From a virus: 30,821 nt of DNA. Numbering within the stretch: position 1 is the first letter of the stretch; each line of letters starts with the position of its first letter. The notes below the pieces were generated by a model. That model saw only the letters and a program-made list of their open reading frames with translations, searched no databases and was not told where the DNA came from. The translations under genes and the position numbers were made by a program. The stretch lies in the IMG/VR virus record IMGVR_UViG_3300048930_001096, positions 1 through 30,821 of that record; one strand, given 5' to 3'. Below, piece by piece: positions 1 through 30,706 of this stretch.

Positions 1-189
1 ACCGTACCACTTCTTCTCATCGTTATGCCTTCGTGGAACTGCGAAGTCATAACTCCACGGTAAACCGATTTCATGCATCTTTCTAAAGTACCAACATGTT
101 CCAAGAATTGCGGCTGTGTCTCCACCGTCCCAATTGCCGCTATAGTCTCTTGTTCCTGGATAACCTTGTTCATCGAAGTAGCTTTTCAT
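1..189 (-). CDS. Partial hypothetical phage protein (cut by left edge)
   Basis: An open frame starts with ATG at 189 and runs off the left edge, giving 63 visible residues. The start is preceded by a good ribosome site (AAGGTGG). The visible protein is rich in Gly, Trp and Tyr and contains NWDGGDTAAILGT near residues 19-31, with no signal peptide or membrane segment. I do not recognise the family. It follows the CsrA-like gene after a 40-base gap and is probably a further member of the same leftward run. An AGTTTAAATT motif lies 26 bases upstream of the start, so it may also have its own control. Confidence 0.7.
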   Translation of the reverse strand, partial: MKSYFDEQGYPGTRDYSGNWDGGDTAAILGTCWYFRKMHEIGLPWSYDFAVPRRHNDEKKWYG

Positions 190-1320: not shown

Positions 1321-1904
1321 GCGGCATCGTCTGGTTCGGGTTGCTGGACTATGGTTCCGATTTTCAGGATTTCACCAATCGACTGCATACCATCGGACCC
1401 TCTACTCTCGTGCGCAGGAAGGGCTCTGATTGATCGCTCGATCGCGGGGGTACCGTAGCGAAGGGTCCCCTCGATTTGATCGCGCAGCTGCGCCTGAAAC
1501 GTCGTTGGATTGATTGTTACGCCGAGGTTCTGGCAAATGTGCATCCAGCCGCCTTGACGCAAGACAGTCTGCCAGCCAATTGGGCCGATGTATAATTCGG
1601 CCGCCTTTGCGTTGCACCAACCGTGGCTGGTAACTGCCCCGACGACGCGGGCCGCAATCTCGCGAGCTTGGACCTCAATCTCAACGAACTCCTCTGGCGC
1701 TACGAGTTCACGAATCTGGGATGGTAGTGGAAAGAATCGATTCTTAGGATTCTTTCGATACCGACCGTAAGCTGCAGTCACCTCGTCCACCGGCAGGTCT
1801 TCAAGGTCATCAACCATCAAGCTCAAAACTTCTGGCTCGAGCTGTCGACCATAGTAAACGGCAACGGCCTTGATCACTTTCGCTAAGGCTTGGCGGTTGT
1901 TCAT
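1317..1904 (-). CDS. Probable phage replication accessory / helicase-loader protein
   Basis: This 195-residue soluble protein starts with ATG inside the stop of the replication initiator-like gene (ATGA overlap) and ends overlapping the methyltransferase start. Its N-terminal half carries the pattern LEDLPVDEVTAAYGRYRKNP followed by FFPLPSQIRELV. Such a pattern is common in proteins encoded just after phage O-like replication genes that act as helicase loaders or loader adaptors. No Walker A motif is visible, so it is not a DnaC-type ATPase. The assignment rests on this pattern and on gene position (initiator then partner, as with lambda O-P). Confidence 0.6.
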   Translation of the reverse strand: MNNRQALAKVIKAVAVYYGRQLEPEVLSLMVDDLEDLPVDEVTAAYGRYRKNPKNRFFPLPSQIRELVAPEEFVEIEVQAREIAARVVGAVTSHGWCNAKAAELYIGPIGWQTVLRQGGWMHICQNLGVTINPTTFQAQLRDQIEGTLRYGTPAIERSIRALPAHESRGSDGMQSIGEILKIGTIVQQPEPDDAA

Positions 1905-2917
1905 ATCTTTCCCTCGTCGATGAGACGGTCCAGTTCGTGGTTTTCGACGGCGCGTTCAAACCTCTTCAGCTCGGAATTGGTAACGGCGCGACCCCTAGCC
2001 CACTGGGTTCGCAGAGACTCGGCGTCGCTGAGGCACACTCCGATCTCGTGCAGCTTGGACACATAGAATGTTTTTGGATGGTTTACGAAAAAGCGAACAA
2101 CGTGTGGCGCATCTTGGCCCAACCTTTTAGCCAACTGATCGATCTGCGAATTTACCTTCGGGTTTCGAATTGGCTCGACTTTGTAGCGGTTCGAGTATTC
2201 CTCTCGGTATGCCGCCCAAATCTGCCCATTCAAATCTTTTTCTGCCGGGGCCGGGGCAGCATCGGCTGCCACGCGTACTCCTTCCCTTCCAGTTCCTTTC
2301 CTCTTCCCTTCCTTTCCCTTCCCTTCCCCACGTGCATGCACGTGCGTTTCAGTGTAATTACATGTGCTATCTGATTTCGCACAGTTACAAGAGCGGCAAA
2401 GAATCTGGAGGTTTTCCAGGCTATGATCGCCTCCCCGCGAGAAAGGATGAATATGATCAATAGTGAGGTCATCGGTGGCTCCGCAGTGCACGCACATGCG
2501 TGCACGTGCAATTACAATGCGTTTCACATGCGCCGGAATGTGTCGGGAACGTGGCTTTTCGGACACCAGAATTTCTGCTGGCGGCTCTGGCAGTTTACTC
2601 TTCGCTTCGCGCGCGTTAATTACCTGATGCCTCAGAAATTTCGGAATCACACCGAAGACCTCTCCGCCAAACTCGTAACGCGCCACGAAGCCCGCGGCCT
2701 CCAGCGCATCTAGGATGTGCGAAAAGTCAACGTCCTGGTCATAAGGCAATATGTCGACTTTCATTTCTCGCGGCCGCCACTTGAACCGACCCTCGCGATC
2801 GGCGACAGTGAACAGCCCGATCCAGGCTACGCGGATTGGAAGGCCAGTCTCCAGTTCCAAATCGTAAAGATCTTCGTGTTTGAAAAGCTCAGGCTTAACC
2901 GTCCTGATCCTCGCCAT
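1901..2917 (-). CDS. Phage replication initiator-like protein with embedded HNH domain
   Basis: This 338-residue protein starts at ATG 2917 behind a strong ribosome site (GGGGGA). Residues 1-110 look like the winged-helix N-terminus of phage replisome organisers (RTVKPELFKHEDL..., VAWIGLFTVADREGRFKW). Residues 132-182 form an HNH/zinc-knuckle nuclease motif: CVHC 142-145, DH 154-155, N169, CRSC 174-177. A very basic Gly/Lys/Arg linker follows at 195-214, then an Asn/Tyr-rich C-terminal region. It is likely to bind the phage origin and recruit helicase with the downstream partner. The HNH block looks inserted. Its DNA is bounded by inverted repeats and by a homopurine tract that encodes the basic linker. 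Confidence 0.72.
   Translation of the reverse strand: MARIRTVKPELFKHEDLYDLELETGLPIRVAWIGLFTVADREGRFKWRPREMKVDILPYDQDVDFSHILDALEAAGFVARYEFGGEVFGVIPKFLRHQVINAREAKSKLPEPPAEILVSEKPRSRHIPAHVKRIVIARARMCVHCGATDDLTIDHIHPFSRGGDHSLENLQILCRSCNCAKSDSTCNYTETHVHARGEGKGKEGKRKGTGREGVRVAADAAPAPAEKDLNGQIWAAYREEYSNRYKVEPIRNPKVNSQIDQLAKRLGQDAPHVVRFFVNHPKTFYVSKLHEIGVCLSDAESLRTQWARGRAVTNSELKRFERAVENHELDRLIDEGKI
2278..2344. repeat. Pyrimidine tract plus 16-bp palindrome (possible replication origin part)
   Basis: The plus strand is all pyrimidine from 2278 to 2290 and again from 2293 to 2329, with only AG between. Directly joined to it is the perfect palindrome CACGTGCATGCACGTG at 2329-2344. Both lie inside the replication initiator-like gene, where lambda-type phages keep their origin. 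On the coding (minus) strand the tract is purine-rich and encodes the Lys/Arg/Gly linker. It may be an origin element or only low-complexity coding sequence. Confidence 0.45.
2352..2517. repeat. Inverted repeats bounding the HNH-coding segment
   Basis: Positions 2352-2367 (GTGTAATTACATGTGC) and 2502-2517 (reverse complement TTGTAATTGCACGTGC) match at 13 of 16 positions in inverted orientation. They enclose the DNA for the HNH knuckles. The right copy overlaps a second perfect inverted repeat, TGCACGCA-CA-TGCGTGCA, at 2487-2504. The repeats are seen directly. Whether they mark a mobile HNH insertion or form origin iterons is inference. Confidence 0.5.
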
Positions 2918-2990
2918 GATGTCCCCCGTTGATGTAGAAAAGAGCAGGAAACACGGTGATTATTTTTCCCCTTGTTTTCCCCTACCCTGT

Positions 2991-3031
2991 TTATGAAAAT
3001 CGATGAAAATGGATGAACGACTGTTGAAAAT
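2991..3031. repeat. 10-bp-phased ATGAAAAT repeats in the left att arm
   Basis: ATGAAAAT occurs at 2993-3000 and 3003-3010. A degenerate copy (ATGAACGA) is at 3013-3020, and TTGAAAAT is at 3024-3031. The first three are spaced exactly 10 bp, so they lie on one face of the helix. Their place between the arm repeat and the core fits cooperative binding by an excisionase or another bending protein. Function is inferred. Confidence 0.5.
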
Positions 3032-3057
3032 GCGTGCAATCTCAGCTTCAAATAAAA

Positions 3058-3063
3058 TATAAA
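3058..3063 (+). promoter_or_regulatory. Possible -10 box upstream of the tRNA half
   Basis: TATAAA lies 12 bases before the first base of the tRNA half, about where a -10 box should be if transcription begins a few bases upstream of the mature tRNA. No clear -35 box is seen at 16-18 bp. If the phage restores the host tRNA from its own 5' half, it must supply a promoter here, and this is the best candidate. Confidence 0.35.
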
Positions 3064-3074
3064 GGGAGCTCGCA

Positions 3075-3115
3075 GACCCCGTAGCTCAGTTGGATAGAGC
3101 ATCAGTTTCCTAAAC
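3075..3115 (+). other. 5' half of tRNA-Arg(CCU), att core
   Basis: Positions 3075-3115 follow tRNA rules base by base. Acceptor strand GACCCCG is 3075-3081, T8 A9, D-stem GCTC/GAGC 3084-3087 and 3097-3100, D-loop AGTTGGATA with the invariant GG, A26, anticodon stem TCAGT 3102-3106, and loop TTCCTAA with anticodon CCT 3109-3111. Two bases of the 3' stem (A39, C40) follow and then the match ends. No T-arm or 3' acceptor appears before the integrase stop. This is the identity segment shared with a host tRNA-Arg(CCU) gene, with the crossover expected in the anticodon region. Confidence 0.82.
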
Positions 3116-3188
3116 AAGTTGATCGTGATATATTCAGTAATTAAAAGACAAAAGATTTCCAGAGGATACGCCAAGTAAGTTCTTAAAC

Positions 3189-4307
3189 TCACTTTCGTTT
3201 CCCCTTGTTTTCCCCGAGGGTGTCTTTCCGGGTGGTGATCAAATCAGACAAACCGGGCACGTCGACTACGTCTTCGAGACCCCGCAAGTCCTCATGATCC
3301 ATGTTAACATAAATGCGACCTTGAACGTCCAATGATGCATCTGCGAACTTCTCTTTTTGCATGTCCGTATGATTTAGAGACTTGTTCGAATACTTCTCAA
3401 AGGTGGCCCTGAAATCATGCCAGGTGATGCCCTCAAGGCCTGCCCTCTGCAAACACTTAAACCATGAGGTCTTAAGTCCTGACACGTCGCCGTGCCTACG
3501 CCAGTCGTTTCGATTCGGGAAAACCCACATCTTGAGTTTGCCCTTTTTTTCGAGTTCGTCCCGATGTGCTTGAAGAACATTTGCAACCGTTTGGTTGATC
3601 GGAAGAGAGCGGTCTCTCCCTTTCTTGTTAAAATCACGTGCGATCACGATATAACGCTCTGAAAGGTTCACCCGGTCCCAGCTGAGCGTCATGATCTCTT
3701 TTCGTCTGAGCCCGTTATAGAGGGCAAGTGACAAGAACACCAAAAGGCCGCCCTTAGAGTTCTCAAAGATCTTCATCAGCTCATGCTGCTTTATGATTCG
3801 TCTCTTGCGCCGCTGGTGGTGAGGAATTTCAGTAATGTCAGGCACGCCCAGAATGTAGCCCTTAGATTTGGACCACTTTAAGAATCCAGACATGACTTTT
3901 CTGTGGTTGGCCAAATCGCTAACCGCTGCCCGGTCGCAATACTGTGCCCAAAGAAGCGGGGTAATTTGCGAAAGTCGTCTCTTCTCAAAAAACCGCAAAA
4001 GGTGCTTTTCGAAAATGTAGACAATCTCGTTGTAGGTCCCCTCTCGAATCTTTTTCTTCTTTAAGAGCTTGCCGTCTCGCTGCTTCTGTTTTTCAAGTTT
4101 ATATTGAACGTAAAGGTCGCCAACCCTTGTTCTTGTTGCAATGGATCCGGCAGCATCAATTTCTAAAAGCAGAAGCTTTTTTCGCTCTAAAGCCTCTGCC
4201 CACACATTGGTTTTGAGGCTTTTCTCAATCTTACCTCGCTTGAAATAGTAAACGCCTGTTCCTGGATGCCGCTTAATATTCGCATCTGAGGTATGATCGT
4301 ATTTCAC
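3189..4307 (-). CDS. int: Tyrosine-recombinase integrase
   Basis: The 372-residue protein has the usual phage integrase plan. An arm-binding N-terminal domain (about 1-55) is followed by a core-binding SAM-like domain (about 60-160) and a catalytic domain (170-345). Catalytic residues seen are Arg201 (GLRRKE), a Lys at 228-229 in the beta-hairpin, His297 and Arg300 (HDFR), and nucleophile Tyr333 (RIYVNMD). The usual LGH before the tyrosine is FAD (321-323), so the third His/Trp is missing. It promotes integration at, and with Xis excision from, a tRNA-Arg site. The gene ends beside attP and its last codons contain the right arm repeat. The excisionase-like gene ends 4 bases upstream of its start. 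Confidence 0.92.
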   Translation of the reverse strand: MKYDHTSDANIKRHPGTGVYYFKRGKIEKSLKTNVWAEALERKKLLLLEIDAAGSIATRTRVGDLYVQYKLEKQKQRDGKLLKKKKIREGTYNEIVYIFEKHLLRFFEKRRLSQITPLLWAQYCDRAAVSDLANHRKVMSGFLKWSKSKGYILGVPDITEIPHHQRRKRRIIKQHELMKIFENSKGGLLVFLSLALYNGLRRKEIMTLSWDRVNLSERYIVIARDFNKKGRDRSLPINQTVANVLQAHRDELEKKGKLKMWVFPNRNDWRRHGDVSGLKTSWFKCLQRAGLEGITWHDFRATFEKYSNKSLNHTDMQKEKFADASLDVQGRIYVNMDHEDLRGLEDVVDVPGLSDLITTRKDTLGENKGKRK

Positions 4308-4311
4308 GGAC

Positions 4312-4557
4312 CTAACTCACTAACTTTAAGACTTCAGCTTTGCTGACAAGGCAGTACTTGCCTTTGCGCCACCGATTTAGCTCGCCAGAAGAAGTCTTAT
4401 TGTAGAGCGTGCCCTTCGAATAAGCACAGCGCTCAACTACGGTTGGGTTATTGTACCTATTCATTAGGTACTCTTTAATGACGGTTACAGCCTCATCCAT
4501 TGTAATTAGGTCCACAGGCTCCTTTGCCGGTCTTCCTACTTTCCTTTTCTTTTCCAT
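4312..4557 (-). CDS. Excisionase-like small DNA-binding protein
   Basis: The frame is open further upstream, but the ATG at 4557 is the likely start because it has a purine-rich ribosome site (GGGGGTTTC) and the upstream residues look non-coding. The resulting 81-residue protein starts with a basic tail (MEKKRKVGRPAKEP). It then has a MerR/HTH_17-like fold with a helix region YSKGTLYNKTSSGELNR and the wing-type ending CLVSKAEVLKLV. Small proteins of this kind beside int usually act as excisionases (Xis), bending att DNA to favour excision. Its gene lies 4 bases upstream of int and is presumably co-transcribed. It could instead be a plain regulator. Confidence 0.65.
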   Translation of the reverse strand: MEKKRKVGRPAKEPVDLITMDEAVTVIKEYLMNRYNNPTVVERCAYSKGTLYNKTSSGELNRWRKGKYCLVSKAEVLKLVS

Positions 4558-4639: not shown

Positions 4640-4870
4640 TCAAACAAACTTAAAGACTTTTCTAAGCTTCTCTTTTGATTCCTCAATCCTCATCTCAATC
4701 AAGACTTCCATTGGAATTCCCAAAATCTTTGATGCTTGCTTATATTTTGAGACCGGAAGTTTTGAGATTTTTCGCTCAATATTTGAAATGTATTGAGCTG
4801 TTGAATAACCGAGCCTATCCGCAAGCTGAGCTTGTGTAAGCCCCGCCTTCAATCTCCACTTTTTCAGCAT
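4640..4870 (-). CDS. XRE-family helix-turn-helix regulator (76 aa)
   Basis: Residues 1-58 form a clear Cro/CI-type helix-turn-helix: LKAGLTQAQLADRLGYSTAQYISNIER, then KYKQASKILGIPMEVLIEM. The C-terminal tail is charged. No effector or peptidase domain is present. It sits in the leftward early operon between the 24-residue membrane micro-ORF and the excisionase-like gene, and may tune int/xis or early expression. DNA-binding regulator is secure. Its target is unknown. Confidence 0.85.
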   Translation of the reverse strand: MLKKWRLKAGLTQAQLADRLGYSTAQYISNIERKISKLPVSKYKQASKILGIPMEVLIEMRIEESKEKLRKVFKFV

Positions 4871-10146: not shown

Positions 10147-11055
10147 TTACCAAAGAAGTCTTATTCGACCAGGTGAGCCGTCACCGCCATTGGCGCCCGA
10201 TACAGCTGACCCAATGTTACATCCGCCGCCACCACCGCCGCCACCTGCGCCGTAACCAGTAGCGTTTCCGCCAGCAGTCATCCCAACGTTGTCAGCGGTT
10301 CCACCCTGACCACCACCGCCACCATCGCCTATACCTGCACCGCCGCCGCCGCCGCCGCCAGCGCCACCCTCACCGCCATTCGCGCCCGCACCACCACCGG
10401 CCCCACCAGAAGAAAAAATGCTCGACTGACCCGATGCTCCAGCGGTTGGTACAAATCCGCCAACCCCTGCATTGCCACCACCGCCGTTACCAGTGGTCTC
10501 AAGCTTTGGGGACCATGAGTTACCAGAGGATCCGCCACCAGAGCCGCGGTTTGAAGTAACTCCCCCTGCGATGCTACCGTTTCCGCCAGAACCGCCAGTC
10601 GCGCCAAACGTGACTAACGTACCGAATGATCCTGACAATACGGTTTGGCCCCCTGATCCGCCCGTGCCACCAATTCCACCGCTCACTCCACCAGGTGCGC
10701 CCGCTCCACCAGCTCCAATGGTGGCCGAAAGGGTTTCAAGTGGCGTTACCTCAACCCATGCATACTTTGGCAAACAACCCATTCCGCCCGCACCACCACC
10801 GCCTGCGCCGCTACCTGCCGAGCTTCCACCGCCGCCGCCACCACCGCCGCCACCAATGAGCTCCACCATCATGCGCGTCACGTTCTCTGGCACCTGGAAA
10901 GTTCCGCTCGCCGTAATTGACGTGAAATTTCCAAATAAGTCGATCAACGCATTGATATTTGCGCCTATTTTATTGAATAGGGCCTCAGTCACGGGCGCTT
11001 CGGCGGAAACCTCAACATCGTTAACCTTGTTTATTTCGCCTGGAATATCAGCCAT
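10147..11055 (-). CDS. Glycine-rich tail tip / receptor-binding protein
   Basis: This 302-residue protein has an N-terminal anchor (about 1-45, EINKVNDVEVSAEAPVTEAL). A segment FTSITASGTFQVPENVTRMMVELIG leads into over 200 residues of glycine-rich sequence broken by short strands. Such glycine-rich domains fold as stacked polyglycine-II helices in phage adhesins (the S16 gp38 type) and occur in many tail-tip proteins. The DNA holds runs of repeated GGC/GGT triplets whose copy number can change without shifting frame. It lies directly after the tail hub gene, in keeping with a receptor-binding role. Confidence 0.75.
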   Translation of the reverse strand: MADIPGEINKVNDVEVSAEAPVTEALFNKIGANINALIDLFGNFTSITASGTFQVPENVTRMMVELIGGGGGGGGGGSSAGSGAGGGGAGGMGCLPKYAWVEVTPLETLSATIGAGGAGAPGGVSGGIGGTGGSGGQTVLSGSFGTLVTFGATGGSGGNGSIAGGVTSNRGSGGGSSGNSWSPKLETTGNGGGGNAGVGGFVPTAGASGQSSIFSSGGAGGGAGANGGEGGAGGGGGGGAGIGDGGGGGQGGTADNVGMTAGGNATGYGAGGGGGGGGCNIGSAVSGANGGDGSPGRIRLLW

Positions 11056-11067
11056 GTTTCATCTCCA

Positions 11068-13338
11068 TTAGAGCTGGTCAAAAGGTGTTTTGCCGTCATC
11101 AAAATCGTCATCACTCATAAAGACATAAACTAGTTTCGCGTTGTCGGTAGCCGTGTTGTATGTGGCAAGCTCCATTACCATGCCATCTGTTGGCACAGAG
11201 GAAAATGCTGGTGAAACCTGAATGGTGTTTGAACTCGCACTTGTGAGCGTTGATAAAAGCACGGTCGAGAAGTCTGCGTTTCTCACCTGTATTTGACAAC
11301 CAACCAAACTTTGCCACTTTCGATATTCAAACGCGCCAAATCTCGAAGCAAAGCTTGATTCAATAACAAAGGACGTTGTGGAGATTCCGCTCTTAACGAT
11401 TGAAGCAGGGCTGATCAAGCCGTAGCGGGCAGCACCAGAAAAGTTTGTATCAACCGCTTCAAACCTAACGTCCCCAGTCTTAATTTGAAATTCCTTGTTC
11501 TGAATCTCAAAAAACCTTGGCGCCATTCCAACGGCGCCAGTCTTGGAATCTGGAAGCTTTAACTTTGTCCCGTCAAAAATGATGATATCGCCAATCTCAA
11601 CACCAAACGAATCATCTAGGAAAGCATCAAAGGTTATAGCTTCTGCTCCGTACTCATAGCGCTTAAGGCGCCTTGACGTCTGCTCTTGCGCAATGTTGTT
11701 TGCAAGGTTCTCGCTTCTTAAGCCCTTAGCCTCAACAAAGAGCGACTTGTTGCCACCTGGAATTCTGTTCTTGGAATTCTGCGAGATTGCAATGTAGCCG
11801 CTATAATACTTATCCTCGAGCGGGTCCTCGTCCCAACGATAGATAACCTCATTATAGAACTGCTTACTCGTTGAGCGCCTGATCTTTACCTTCGAGGGGT
11901 TTTTAACATTCGTGTCGTTAAAGGTCGCTATGTCCTGACCAGGGATTGGACCAATGTGGTAACCAAGAGAGGATCTCGACTTCCTTGGTATAGAATATGC
12001 GGCCATTGGTGAATAAACATACTGATCAAGAAACTCTCGAGCGTTCTCAATTCCCTCTTTTAAGTAAAAGTCATACTCGACAGAGGAGAGAAACAATCGG
12101 TAAATTCGAAGGTGTTCGGCAATATCGACCTCGTCGCCGTACATCTTTAAACCATCTGGCAGAGTATCAAACTGCGATCTAAACGAGGCTTGCGAATACT
12201 TGCCGTTATCATCGGTGAGCGTTACACCCTCAATCTGCACGAAATCGCCAAGGGTACTTTTGATGATGGCCGAAACGCGCTTATCCGTAAAATCGTTGGC
12301 AGGTAAAAAGTCATTTACCAAGGAGACATAGTCACCCTCAGTTAAGCCGTACTTTTCCGTTACATCGATATCTTTGAAAAAGAGGGCATTCTCAACTCTC
12401 TCTGCACCAGAGATGTTAACACCATCAACGTCGACCTCTTCTAGGTAAGGGCCATTCCAGCCTGACAGCATTAGTTTTAAGGCAAGATAAACGCCGTTAC
12501 CTTTTAGCCTATAGTAACTGCTAACTGGTGCGTCCTCAGCGTGCGAAGATGCCGTGGTTCCGAGCGCACCTCTAGTCACGCCTGTTAGGACATTCGAAGA
12601 TATGCCCGTATACTGAATGATCTCGTCGTCAATTCTAACGTATGAGAGAAAGGATGAGTCGTAGCTGCCATCAGGACCTAGGATTCTGGTTAGAAAATTT
12701 GTTGAGTTCGCAAGTGTAATGCTACTCGTCTGTGAGCTGTCGATTGCAGAGAATAGATTTGTCTCGGCAAGCTTGAAAATGTTTGAACGCTTCTTTTCAT
12801 CCGGGTGGTTTAACTGCAAGACGGACTTGCCAGCCGAAGACATGACGTCGGTGATAACGCCTCGAAATATCGTAATGTAGTCCTCAGGCCAAGCAGTACC
12901 AGTAAATCCCATGTAGACCTTGCATCGCCTCTGCAAGAGGTCGTCCAAGATCTCACCAGGAGTTAGTAGCCTTGTTACATAGCCATCATCCATGAGCGCA
13001 ATATTCAAAGCCGAGATGCTCGAGCCTTCACCCTTATCAATCTGTAAAGAGCTTCGTATTGAAGTCGATGTTTCTTCAAACGTGATGATGTCGTCTTGAT
13101 CTTCTACAAGGTTAAAGCCGCCTATGTAAAAAGCGAGATCGTTTGTTTCCGGATCACCAATCTCGGGGACTGGATCACCTGGTCCTGGTTCCTCGTAGGT
13201 TCCACCAATTCTAACGTATTGCTGGATAAGTGAAGCGCCAAAAACAGTGTTTAAGCCCTCAATCTCAAGCACAATGTTTGGCTCTTTAGCCGTCTGTTTT
13301 AGAGCTGATTTCGCCTGAGTCGTGATCGAGATGCCCAT
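11068..13338 (-). CDS. Large tail hub / tip protein (756 aa)
   Basis: This is the longest protein of the window after the tail genes. Residues 1-190 form a beta-rich hub-like region (ITFEETSTSIRSSLQIDKGE..., IFRGVITDVMSSAGKSVLQL). Residues near 225-285 carry a small recurrent tail domain (VRIDDEIIQYTGIS, LTGVTRGALGTTASSH). Residues 390-640 resemble the long middle of baseplate hub proteins that wrap the tail channel (DTLPDGLKMYGDEVDIAEHL, VKIRRSTSKQFYNEVIYRW). It is the probable central fibre/hub for the distal tail protein. Between it and the distal tail gene lie fibre and lysis genes, which is unusual but seen in mosaic phages. Confidence 0.72.
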   Translation of the reverse strand: MGISITTQAKSALKQTAKEPNIVLEIEGLNTVFGASLIQQYVRIGGTYEEPGPGDPVPEIGDPETNDLAFYIGGFNLVEDQDDIITFEETSTSIRSSLQIDKGEGSSISALNIALMDDGYVTRLLTPGEILDDLLQRRCKVYMGFTGTAWPEDYITIFRGVITDVMSSAGKSVLQLNHPDEKKRSNIFKLAETNLFSAIDSSQTSSITLANSTNFLTRILGPDGSYDSSFLSYVRIDDEIIQYTGISSNVLTGVTRGALGTTASSHAEDAPVSSYYRLKGNGVYLALKLMLSGWNGPYLEEVDVDGVNISGAERVENALFFKDIDVTEKYGLTEGDYVSLVNDFLPANDFTDKRVSAIIKSTLGDFVQIEGVTLTDDNGKYSQASFRSQFDTLPDGLKMYGDEVDIAEHLRIYRLFLSSVEYDFYLKEGIENAREFLDQYVYSPMAAYSIPRKSRSSLGYHIGPIPGQDIATFNDTNVKNPSKVKIRRSTSKQFYNEVIYRWDEDPLEDKYYSGYIAISQNSKNRIPGGNKSLFVEAKGLRSENLANNIAQEQTSRRLKRYEYGAEAITFDAFLDDSFGVEIGDIIIFDGTKLKLPDSKTGAVGMAPRFFEIQNKEFQIKTGDVRFEAVDTNFSGAARYGLISPASIVKSGISTTSFVIESSFASRFGAFEYRKWQSLVGCQIQVRNADFSTVLLSTLTSASSNTIQVSPAFSSVPTDGMVMELATYNTATDNAKLVYVFMSDDDFDDGKTPFDQL

Positions 13339-29476: not shown

Positions 29477-29627
29477 GTTTCCCCTTCCCAAGTCTTGATC
29501 ACACTTTCGAAGTAATTCAGATTCAAGGCTTAAATGTTGTGCATGCTTATTTTTATTGCAGTTTAAATTGAAACGAAGCCTTTGAGTGTGAAAAATAACT
29601 ATGAACCCTTAAAGCATGGCGGAGATC
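29477..29627. promoter_or_regulatory. Divergent gap upstream of the fibre cluster
   Basis: This AT-rich gap lies between the coiled-coil gene and the fibre genes and carries AGTTTAAATT at 29560-29569, 58 bases before the chosen fibre-gene start. The same motif is in the late-promoter gap. It likely contains the promoter for the plus-strand fibre operon. Confidence 0.45.
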
Positions 29628-29999
29628 ATGGCGGCTGCTTCACTTGATATATTTATCGAACAAGGTGCTACATTCTTTCGACGCCTGACCATAAAGGATG
29701 AGAACGATCAACCCGTTGACCTAACGGGCAGAACTTTTCGCGGAAAGATAAAGCGCTCAATTGGTGGGGCTGAGCTCGCCTCATTTACCTTCGATATCCT
29801 CAACCAAACCACCGATCCTGGAAAAATCACCATGGCTCTTACGCCAACTCAGACGGCAGCCCTACCAGTTAAGCGCGGCACAGACGCTATTCGAACAACC
29901 GCAGAATACATTTACGATGTTGAGATGGTGTATGGCACTGGCGACGTTGATCGCATCCTTCAGGGAAAAGCGACAGTTTCGGGTGAAGCCACGACATGA
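29628..29999 (+). CDS. Small virion/fibre-linked protein (123 aa)
   Basis: The ATG at 29628 has GGAG 4 bases before it, so it is preferred over ATG 29616. The protein has a beta-rich pattern (LDIFIEQGATFFRRLTIKDE, VDLTGRTFRGKIKRSIGGAE) and a Thr-rich C-terminus. The segment (DIFIEQGATFFRRLTIKDEN...LTGRTFRGKIK) is common in short phage structural proteins preceding fibres. It overlaps the collagen-like gene (ATGA). Likely part of a side-fibre attachment module. Confidence 0.65.
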   Translation: MAAASLDIFIEQGATFFRRLTIKDENDQPVDLTGRTFRGKIKRSIGGAELASFTFDILNQTTDPGKITMALTPTQTAALPVKRGTDAIRTTAEYIYDVEMVYGTGDVDRILQGKATVSGEATT

Positions 30000-30706
30000 G
30001 CAATTACGACGTTCTTGTTCAAGATGGAACAAGTACCAACGTCGAAGTTACGGCAGGACAGAACTTTTCGGCAACCGTTGAATCAGATCAAGAATCAATC
30101 GTCGTTCAAATTCTTCCCGAGCAGTCCTTCACGGCAGTGGTCGAGCAGCAAAGCGATATCTCTTTAACGGTTGAGCCTGACCAAGAGATTTTGACTGTTG
30201 TCGTAGAAAATCAAGCTGCCTATAGCGTAGAGGTCTCGCAAGAAGAAGACTTCTTCACGATTGAGGTGGGATCTGTGCCAGGCCCACCAGGGCCAACAGG
30301 ACCTCAAGGACCGATTGGCCCACAAGGCCCTCAAGGGGATCCAGGCGAGCTAGAATACCTTATATCTAGGCGCCTTGCCGGTGAAACCATCTCTGCGCTT
30401 AAATGTCTAAGAGTGAGTAACCAGAAATATTTTGTCGCACGCTCAGACTTAACCTTTGAGAGCGCACAGGTTGCAGCGATTGCAAGAAACGCTGGCGCAG
30501 TTGATGCCGAAATCGAAGGCATCTCTCAAGGCGACCTTGCCGATCCGGCATTTACCTTCACTGAGGGATCTCAGCTCTATCTCTCGGCCACTGGATCTAT
30601 AACAGACGTGGCACCCACTTCGGGCTTTCGCGTAAGAATCGGAAAAGCCTTAGGTGTTGGATTAATTCAAATATCGATAACGGAACCCATAACCTTGGAG
30701 ATTTAA
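29996..30706 (+). CDS. Collagen-like phage fibre protein with decapeptide repeats (236 aa)
   Basis: Residues 21-90 consist of seven 10-residue beta-type units (GQNFSATVES, PEQSFTAVVE, QQSDISLTVE and others). Residues 96-116 are seven Gly-X-Y collagen triplets (GPPGPTGPQG and on). Residues 120-236 form a globular C-terminal domain (ISRRLAGETISALKCLRVSN, DVAPTSGFRVRIGKALGVGL) also seen in other fibre proteins. A trimeric fibre with a collagen stem is expected. It lies in a plus-strand fibre cluster separate from the minus-strand tail operon. Confidence 0.82.
   Translation: MSNYDVLVQDGTSTNVEVTAGQNFSATVESDQESIVVQILPEQSFTAVVEQQSDISLTVEPDQEILTVVVENQAAYSVEVSQEEDFFTIEVGSVPGPPGPTGPQGPIGPQGPQGDPGELEYLISRRLAGETISALKCLRVSNQKYFVARSDLTFESAQVAAIARNAGAVDAEIEGISQGDLADPAFTFTEGSQLYLSATGSITDVAPTSGFRVRIGKALGVGLIQISITEPITLEI

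Follow-up and report, generated by a model that had tools for sequence, protein, structure and literature searches.

Introduction

Elements that integrate into tRNA genes normally carry an attP of ~250 bp that includes a fragment of the target gene (PMC4383910). The Islander survey mapped 3919 islands, of which 3760 carry a 3' fragment and 159 a 5' fragment (PMC4383910). Among archaea, use of the tRNA 5' half is described in a review as unique to the pTN3-like integrases, where the tRNA is read from a promoter of the element, and comparable use of the 5' half is described there as rarely encountered in bacteria (PMC8371274). Pairs of arm-type sites flanking the core have been described for lambda-like mycobacteriophage integrases (PMC10865867). 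Here we analysed a phage record in which positions 2965-3215 (251 bp) very probably form the complete attP of a tailed phage with a temperate lifestyle. The phage integrase would recombine this attP with a tRNA-Arg(CCU) gene of the host, in the region of the anticodon loop. The attP is of the 5'-half type, a known minority class, and its novelty is modest.

The phage and the genes around the site

The window, that is, the whole stretch of DNA analysed, is the entire IMG/VR record IMGVR_UViG_3300048930_001096, which is linear and has 30,821 bases and a G+C content of 0.47. Judged by its genes, which encode a terminase, major head protein, neck, tape measure and tail proteins, exonuclease VIII, a CI/Cro-type regulator and an integrase, its source is a tailed temperate phage. 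The named phages searched at the DNA level gave no match to the record, and viral contigs searched with single integrase or terminase proteins gave no close relatives; the phage is without close relatives in the collections searched. Alignment of the integrase in viral contigs returned four weak matches, and the only tRNA in the DNA surrounding these was one tRNA-Phe.

A gap of 271 bp separates the integrase gene (int, 3189-4307, minus strand) from a gene for a replication initiation/HNH protein (rep, 1901-2917, minus strand; PF01844, 7.1e-12; phrog_16167, 4.5e-43). A DNA methyltransferase is encoded further to the left (418-1320; phrog_67, 5.6e-78). Directly upstream of int lies a gene for an 81-aa HTH protein (4312-4557, minus strand), a candidate excisionase by virtue of its position; its match to HTH_17 (0.0022) is weak and under the cut-off. 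A 76-aa HTH_3 regulator of the CI/Cro type is encoded at 4640-4870 (minus strand; PF01381, 3.5e-12; PHROG regulators/repressors). Within rep, the palindrome CACGTGCATGCACGTG and a near-copy occur at 2328-2346 and 2486-2511, and these are possibly part of a replication origin. Elsewhere in the window, CCGCC/CCACC low-complexity tracts were observed in a tail-fibre-assembly-like ORF at 10147-11055 (phrog_863, 2.4e-5), and a tail-fibre-like ORF close to the record's right end (29996-30706) contains a short collagen-like stretch (GPPGPTGPQGPIGPQGPQG).

The probable attP core consists of a tRNA-Arg(CCU) 5' half

Positions 3075-3115 (plus strand), the core of the attP, contain 41 nt of a tRNA-Arg(CCU) gene, from the acceptor strand to the anticodon stem. 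The half gene reads GACCCCG-TA-GCTC-AGTTGGATA-GAGC-A-TCAGT-TTCCTAA-AC, with the anticodon CCT at 3109-3111, and ends two bases beyond the anticodon loop. This loop (TTCCTAA, 3107-3113, plus strand) is the probable strand-exchange (overlap) region, as judged from the known anticodon-loop class; the identity with host tRNAs ends at 3115. No whole tRNA was detected in the window by ARAGORN, and an Rfam search of the site gave no relevant match. An intact tyrosine integrase gene lies beside the tRNA half, as is typical of an attP derived from a tRNA gene.

The initial annotation described the half gene as exact. It is a well-formed 5' half, but the exact 41-mer was absent from the genome collection, where the best matches were 39/41; a viral contig reached 40/41. 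The stretch of 34 nt that begins at tRNA position 8 was found exactly in six genomes (four Hyphomicrobiales, one Deltaproteobacteria MAG and one member of the Bdellovibrionota, the phylum of Bdellovibrio-like predators), always within intact tRNA-Arg(CCT) genes, and a looser form of this 34-nt pattern was present in 24/369 Bdellovibrionota genomes. Intact matching genes, such as a tRNA-gene attP calls for, are present in plausible hosts, with exact identity over 34 nt and near-identity (39/41) overall, and no host at 41/41; the lack of any tRNA match in a likely host, named as counter-evidence in the initial annotation, was not observed.

To this half we joined in silico the 3' halves of real tRNA-Arg(CCU) genes from Bdellovibrionota, other bacteria and viral sequences, and ARAGORN recognised a tRNA-Arg(cct) in 8/8 joins. 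With the 3' half of one Bdellovibrionota genome, G199, the phage half formed 7/7 acceptor pairs and 5/5 anticodon-stem pairs; the 5' strand of G199 itself (GACCTCG) leaves one G-U pair in the acceptor stem. This full pairing suggests that the phage half remains usable and that the 3' half of the true host should resemble that of G199.

Repeated boxes flank the core next to an integrase of predicted lambda type

The sequence TTTCCCCTTGTTTTCCCC occurs as two exact 18-bp direct copies at 2965-2982 and 3198-3215. The identity of these copies, and the position of the second within the terminal part of the integrase gene (ORF 3189-4307), had both been noted in the initial annotation and were confirmed here. 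In shuffled sequences, 0.03 matches to the 18-mer with up to three mismatches are expected. When direct repeats with copies 20-500 bp apart were considered, the longest in the window was 18 bp, whereas each of 300 dinucleotide shuffles gave either no such repeat or a longest one of 12-16 bp. The 18-bp repeat is also the longest non-simple direct repeat of the window, the remaining repeats of at least 17 bp being low-complexity CCGCC tracts. Each copy consists of tandem TTTCCCC boxes (GGGGAAA on the minus strand) spaced 11 bp apart, which places boxes at 2965, 2976, 3198 and 3209. These are four of the five TTTCCCC boxes in the window (the fifth is at 29478), and GGGGAAA is not found on its plus strand. 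Four boxes within 260 bp were seen in 0/300 shuffles, where the maximum was two. The repeat pair and the box cluster are not a product of chance.

The box pairs of the P-arm repeat (2965-2982, minus strand) and the P'-arm repeat (3198-3215, minus strand) are probably arm-type sites bound by the integrase. Identical short repeats on either side of the core, here ~136 and ~97 bp from its centre, are the arrangement known from lambda-type (heterobivalent) arm sites. Between the P arm and the core is a further direct repeat, ATGAAAATCG/ATGAAAATGG (2993-3012, plus strand), with its copies 10 bp apart; the motif occurs at just two further places in the window, and, as a guess, it may provide accessory (excisionase) sites. 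When the 18-mer was sought in viral contigs, the one match lay in an unrelated small ORF of L015 that also reads GENKGK, and was taken as a coincidence.

The int gene encodes a tyrosine integrase of 372 aa with a GTG start (PF00589, 1e-13; phrog_1, 1.2e-31). Its catalytic residues were placed by alignment at R201, H297/R300 and Y333, the last being the catalytic tyrosine. An AlphaFold model based on six sequences was of moderate quality (mean pLDDT 66), and the last 67 residues were poorly modelled. In the model, a three-stranded sheet and a helix at residues 11-57 are followed by core-binding helices and the catalytic domain, and Foldseek matched the model to XerA and to DNA-bound lambda Int (1z1b/1z1g). 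A Pfam search of the integrase returned no arm-binding family. The predicted β-β-β-α fold (strands 11-30, helix 36-57) would supply the separate N-terminal arm-binding domain that marks the lambda type, and a lambda-Int layout is what this moderate-quality model predicts. Such a layout is required by arm sites, and the arm-site reading made earlier from the DNA is in keeping with it. The C-terminal tail of the integrase is longer than that of its nearest Bdellovibrionota relative, and the P' repeat lies within this tail, where it encodes GENKGK.

The site appears to be an unrecombined attP

With phage genes to the left and right of the site and an identical arm on each side of the core, the sequence supports an unrecombined attP rather than a prophage end. 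The competing view is that the site is the int-side end (attL) of an integrated prophage, in which the half-tRNA is the displaced host 5' half and host chromosome lies to the left of 3075. A displaced host 5' half beside int is indeed expected of such an end, and the record is linear. However, the DNA to the left of 2917 carries phage replication and methyltransferase genes (phrog_16167 and phrog_67) and not host genes, so that phage gene families are found both left and right of the site, as expected before recombination. Furthermore, the left arm repeat is identical to the copy in int, and the host side of a prophage end would not retain such an arm. We therefore regard an attL as very improbable, and the earlier reading of the site as the attP of a free phage stands.

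It is somewhat easier to imagine, though still unlikely, that the core is a tRNA-based attP and the 18-bp repeats are operators or sites for another protein, controlling for example rep and int. The left copy precedes the rep start codon by 48 bp, and binding of the repeats by the integrase is putative. Yet the tandem boxes with their 11-bp spacing are placed symmetrically about the core at the distances of arm sites, the integrase has a predicted arm-binding domain, and the end of the int coding sequence would be an odd position for an operator. Hardly any weight falls on the half-tRNA being a chance or decayed remnant that takes no part in integration. An exact host match to the 41-mer is lacking, and no integrated copy or relative with a rebuilt tRNA and a displaced fragment was found in the collections searched, which may lack the true host. 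A remnant would hardly be undamaged across 41 nt, end just beyond the anticodon loop, adjoin an intact integrase gene and still yield a complete tRNA when joined to 3' halves from hosts. Collectively, these observations favour a complete, unrecombined attP.

Proposed integration mechanism

In the proposed mechanism, the N-terminal domain of the integrase would occupy the GGGGAAA box pairs and its other domains the core, thereby bridging arms and core, and strands would be exchanged within the anticodon loop (3107-3113). Since the phage carries the 5' half, its union with the host 3' half would rebuild a working tRNA-Arg(CCU) at the prophage end that carries rep, and the original 5' half of the host gene would be left beside int. 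The rebuilt tRNA would then be transcribed from phage DNA. As in 5'-fragment islands, positions 3075-3115 are the 5' part of the tRNA and the DNA upstream of them is that of the phage; among promoter candidates in the phage DNA that precedes the half, the best scored 9/12, which is not above background. The crossover would take place outside int, so int would remain whole and the P' arm site would be kept in both states.

Related loci in Bdellovibrionota and viral contigs

The nearest Bdellovibrionota integrase (L054, 3394-4488, minus strand) is 29% identical to that of the phage. Its end and the 3' end of an intact tRNA-Arg(UCU) gene (3242-3318, plus strand) are separated by 72 bp. This arrangement fits the common 3'-half type at a different arginine tRNA, and its location at the 3' side of the tRNA counts against the 5'-half reading of the phage attP. 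If L054 is read correctly, distantly related integrases occur with both 5'- and 3'-half types.

In three Bdellovibrionota genomes (G268, G132 and G274), an intact tRNA-Arg(CCU) gene is preceded by an extra tRNA-Arg(CCU) 5' half. No integrase was found near these stand-alone halves on their contigs. In G268 (L047, C37 44000-62000), the half at 11605 (minus strand) and the intact tRNA at 7861-7785 (minus strand) are 3.7 kb apart and have identical 5' halves; no gene between them is integrase-like, and the locus is possibly an old 5'-half island. In G132 (L048, 8369-8601) and G274 (L049, 11147-11377), the half lies ~155 bp upstream of the intact gene. The two spacers share a 27-nt motif, GACGGGGAAATTGACGGAAAAGGAAAA, that is absent from the rest of the 369 genomes. 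In both genomes, the stand-alone half and the 5' half of the intact gene are different in sequence, and the former is therefore not a simple copy of the latter; these loci are possibly very small integrase-less elements or relics. The motif GACGGGGAAATTGACGG of both loci resembles the phage boxes and has the opposite direction relative to the tRNA, and we do not claim kinship. Together, the three genomes show that tRNA-Arg(CCU) 5' halves get displaced in Bdellovibrionota; that this phage was the agent does not follow. Separately, in a viral contig (L090, IMGVR_UViG_3300013126_003582), an intact tRNA-Arg(CCU) gene and a tRNA-Arg(CCU) 5' half on the opposite strand face each other (70-118, plus strand, and 294-220, minus strand), and no PF00589 integrase was found in its 18,984 bases.

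Candidate hosts

Calling the host from the tRNA alone was rejected, as Hyphomicrobiales, a Deltaproteobacteria MAG and Bdellovibrionota all tie at 39/41. The G+C content of the window (0.47) leans towards Bdellovibrionota, whose loci have values of 0.39-0.47, compared to 0.55-0.58 for Hyphomicrobiales loci; the tetranucleotide correlations of the candidate groups overlap. The phage terminase was sought in 119 genomes of the order of G199, with one weak match only, and in the 24 Bdellovibrionota genomes with the tRNA pattern, with none. The search for the host is narrowed by the tRNA half itself: the host 3' half should carry CGGGGTC, which pairs with GACCCCG, and ACTGA, which pairs with TCAGT.

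Discussion

These results provide a precise predicted integration site and a tRNA target for a phage that has no close relatives in the collections searched. They also add a clear attP to the minority 5'-half type, in which the prophage would take over transcription of the host tRNA. We tentatively consider, as a rather doubtful extension, that the phage is a member of an undescribed lineage of Bdellovibrionota phages that take over the 5' part, and hence the transcription, of the host tRNA-Arg(CCU), and that the stand-alone 5' halves in three genomes are traces of repeated use of the site, some of it by very small integrase-less elements.

Compared with described systems, the phage resembles the anticodon-loop class of Islander in its core made of a tRNA fragment, its length of ~250 bp, the crossover predicted at the anticodon loop and the adjacent integrase, but Islander islands mostly have a 3' fragment, whereas the phage carries a 5' fragment (PMC4383910). 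As in the attP of lambda-like mycobacteriophages, the common core lies between pairs of putative arm-type sites and the integrase has an N-terminal arm-binding domain, predicted in the phage (PMC10865867). Attachment-site DNA that overlaps the integrase coding sequence is shared with the Mx8 and SSV integrases; in those systems int spans attP, whereas the phage int contains one arm repeat only and not the core (PMC4383910). The pTN3-like integrases likewise use the tRNA 5' half, and the rebuilt tRNA is read from the DNA of the element, as would be the case for the phage. In contrast, these integrases are archaeal and their gene is split on integration, whereas the crossover of the phage would lie outside int (PMC8371274).
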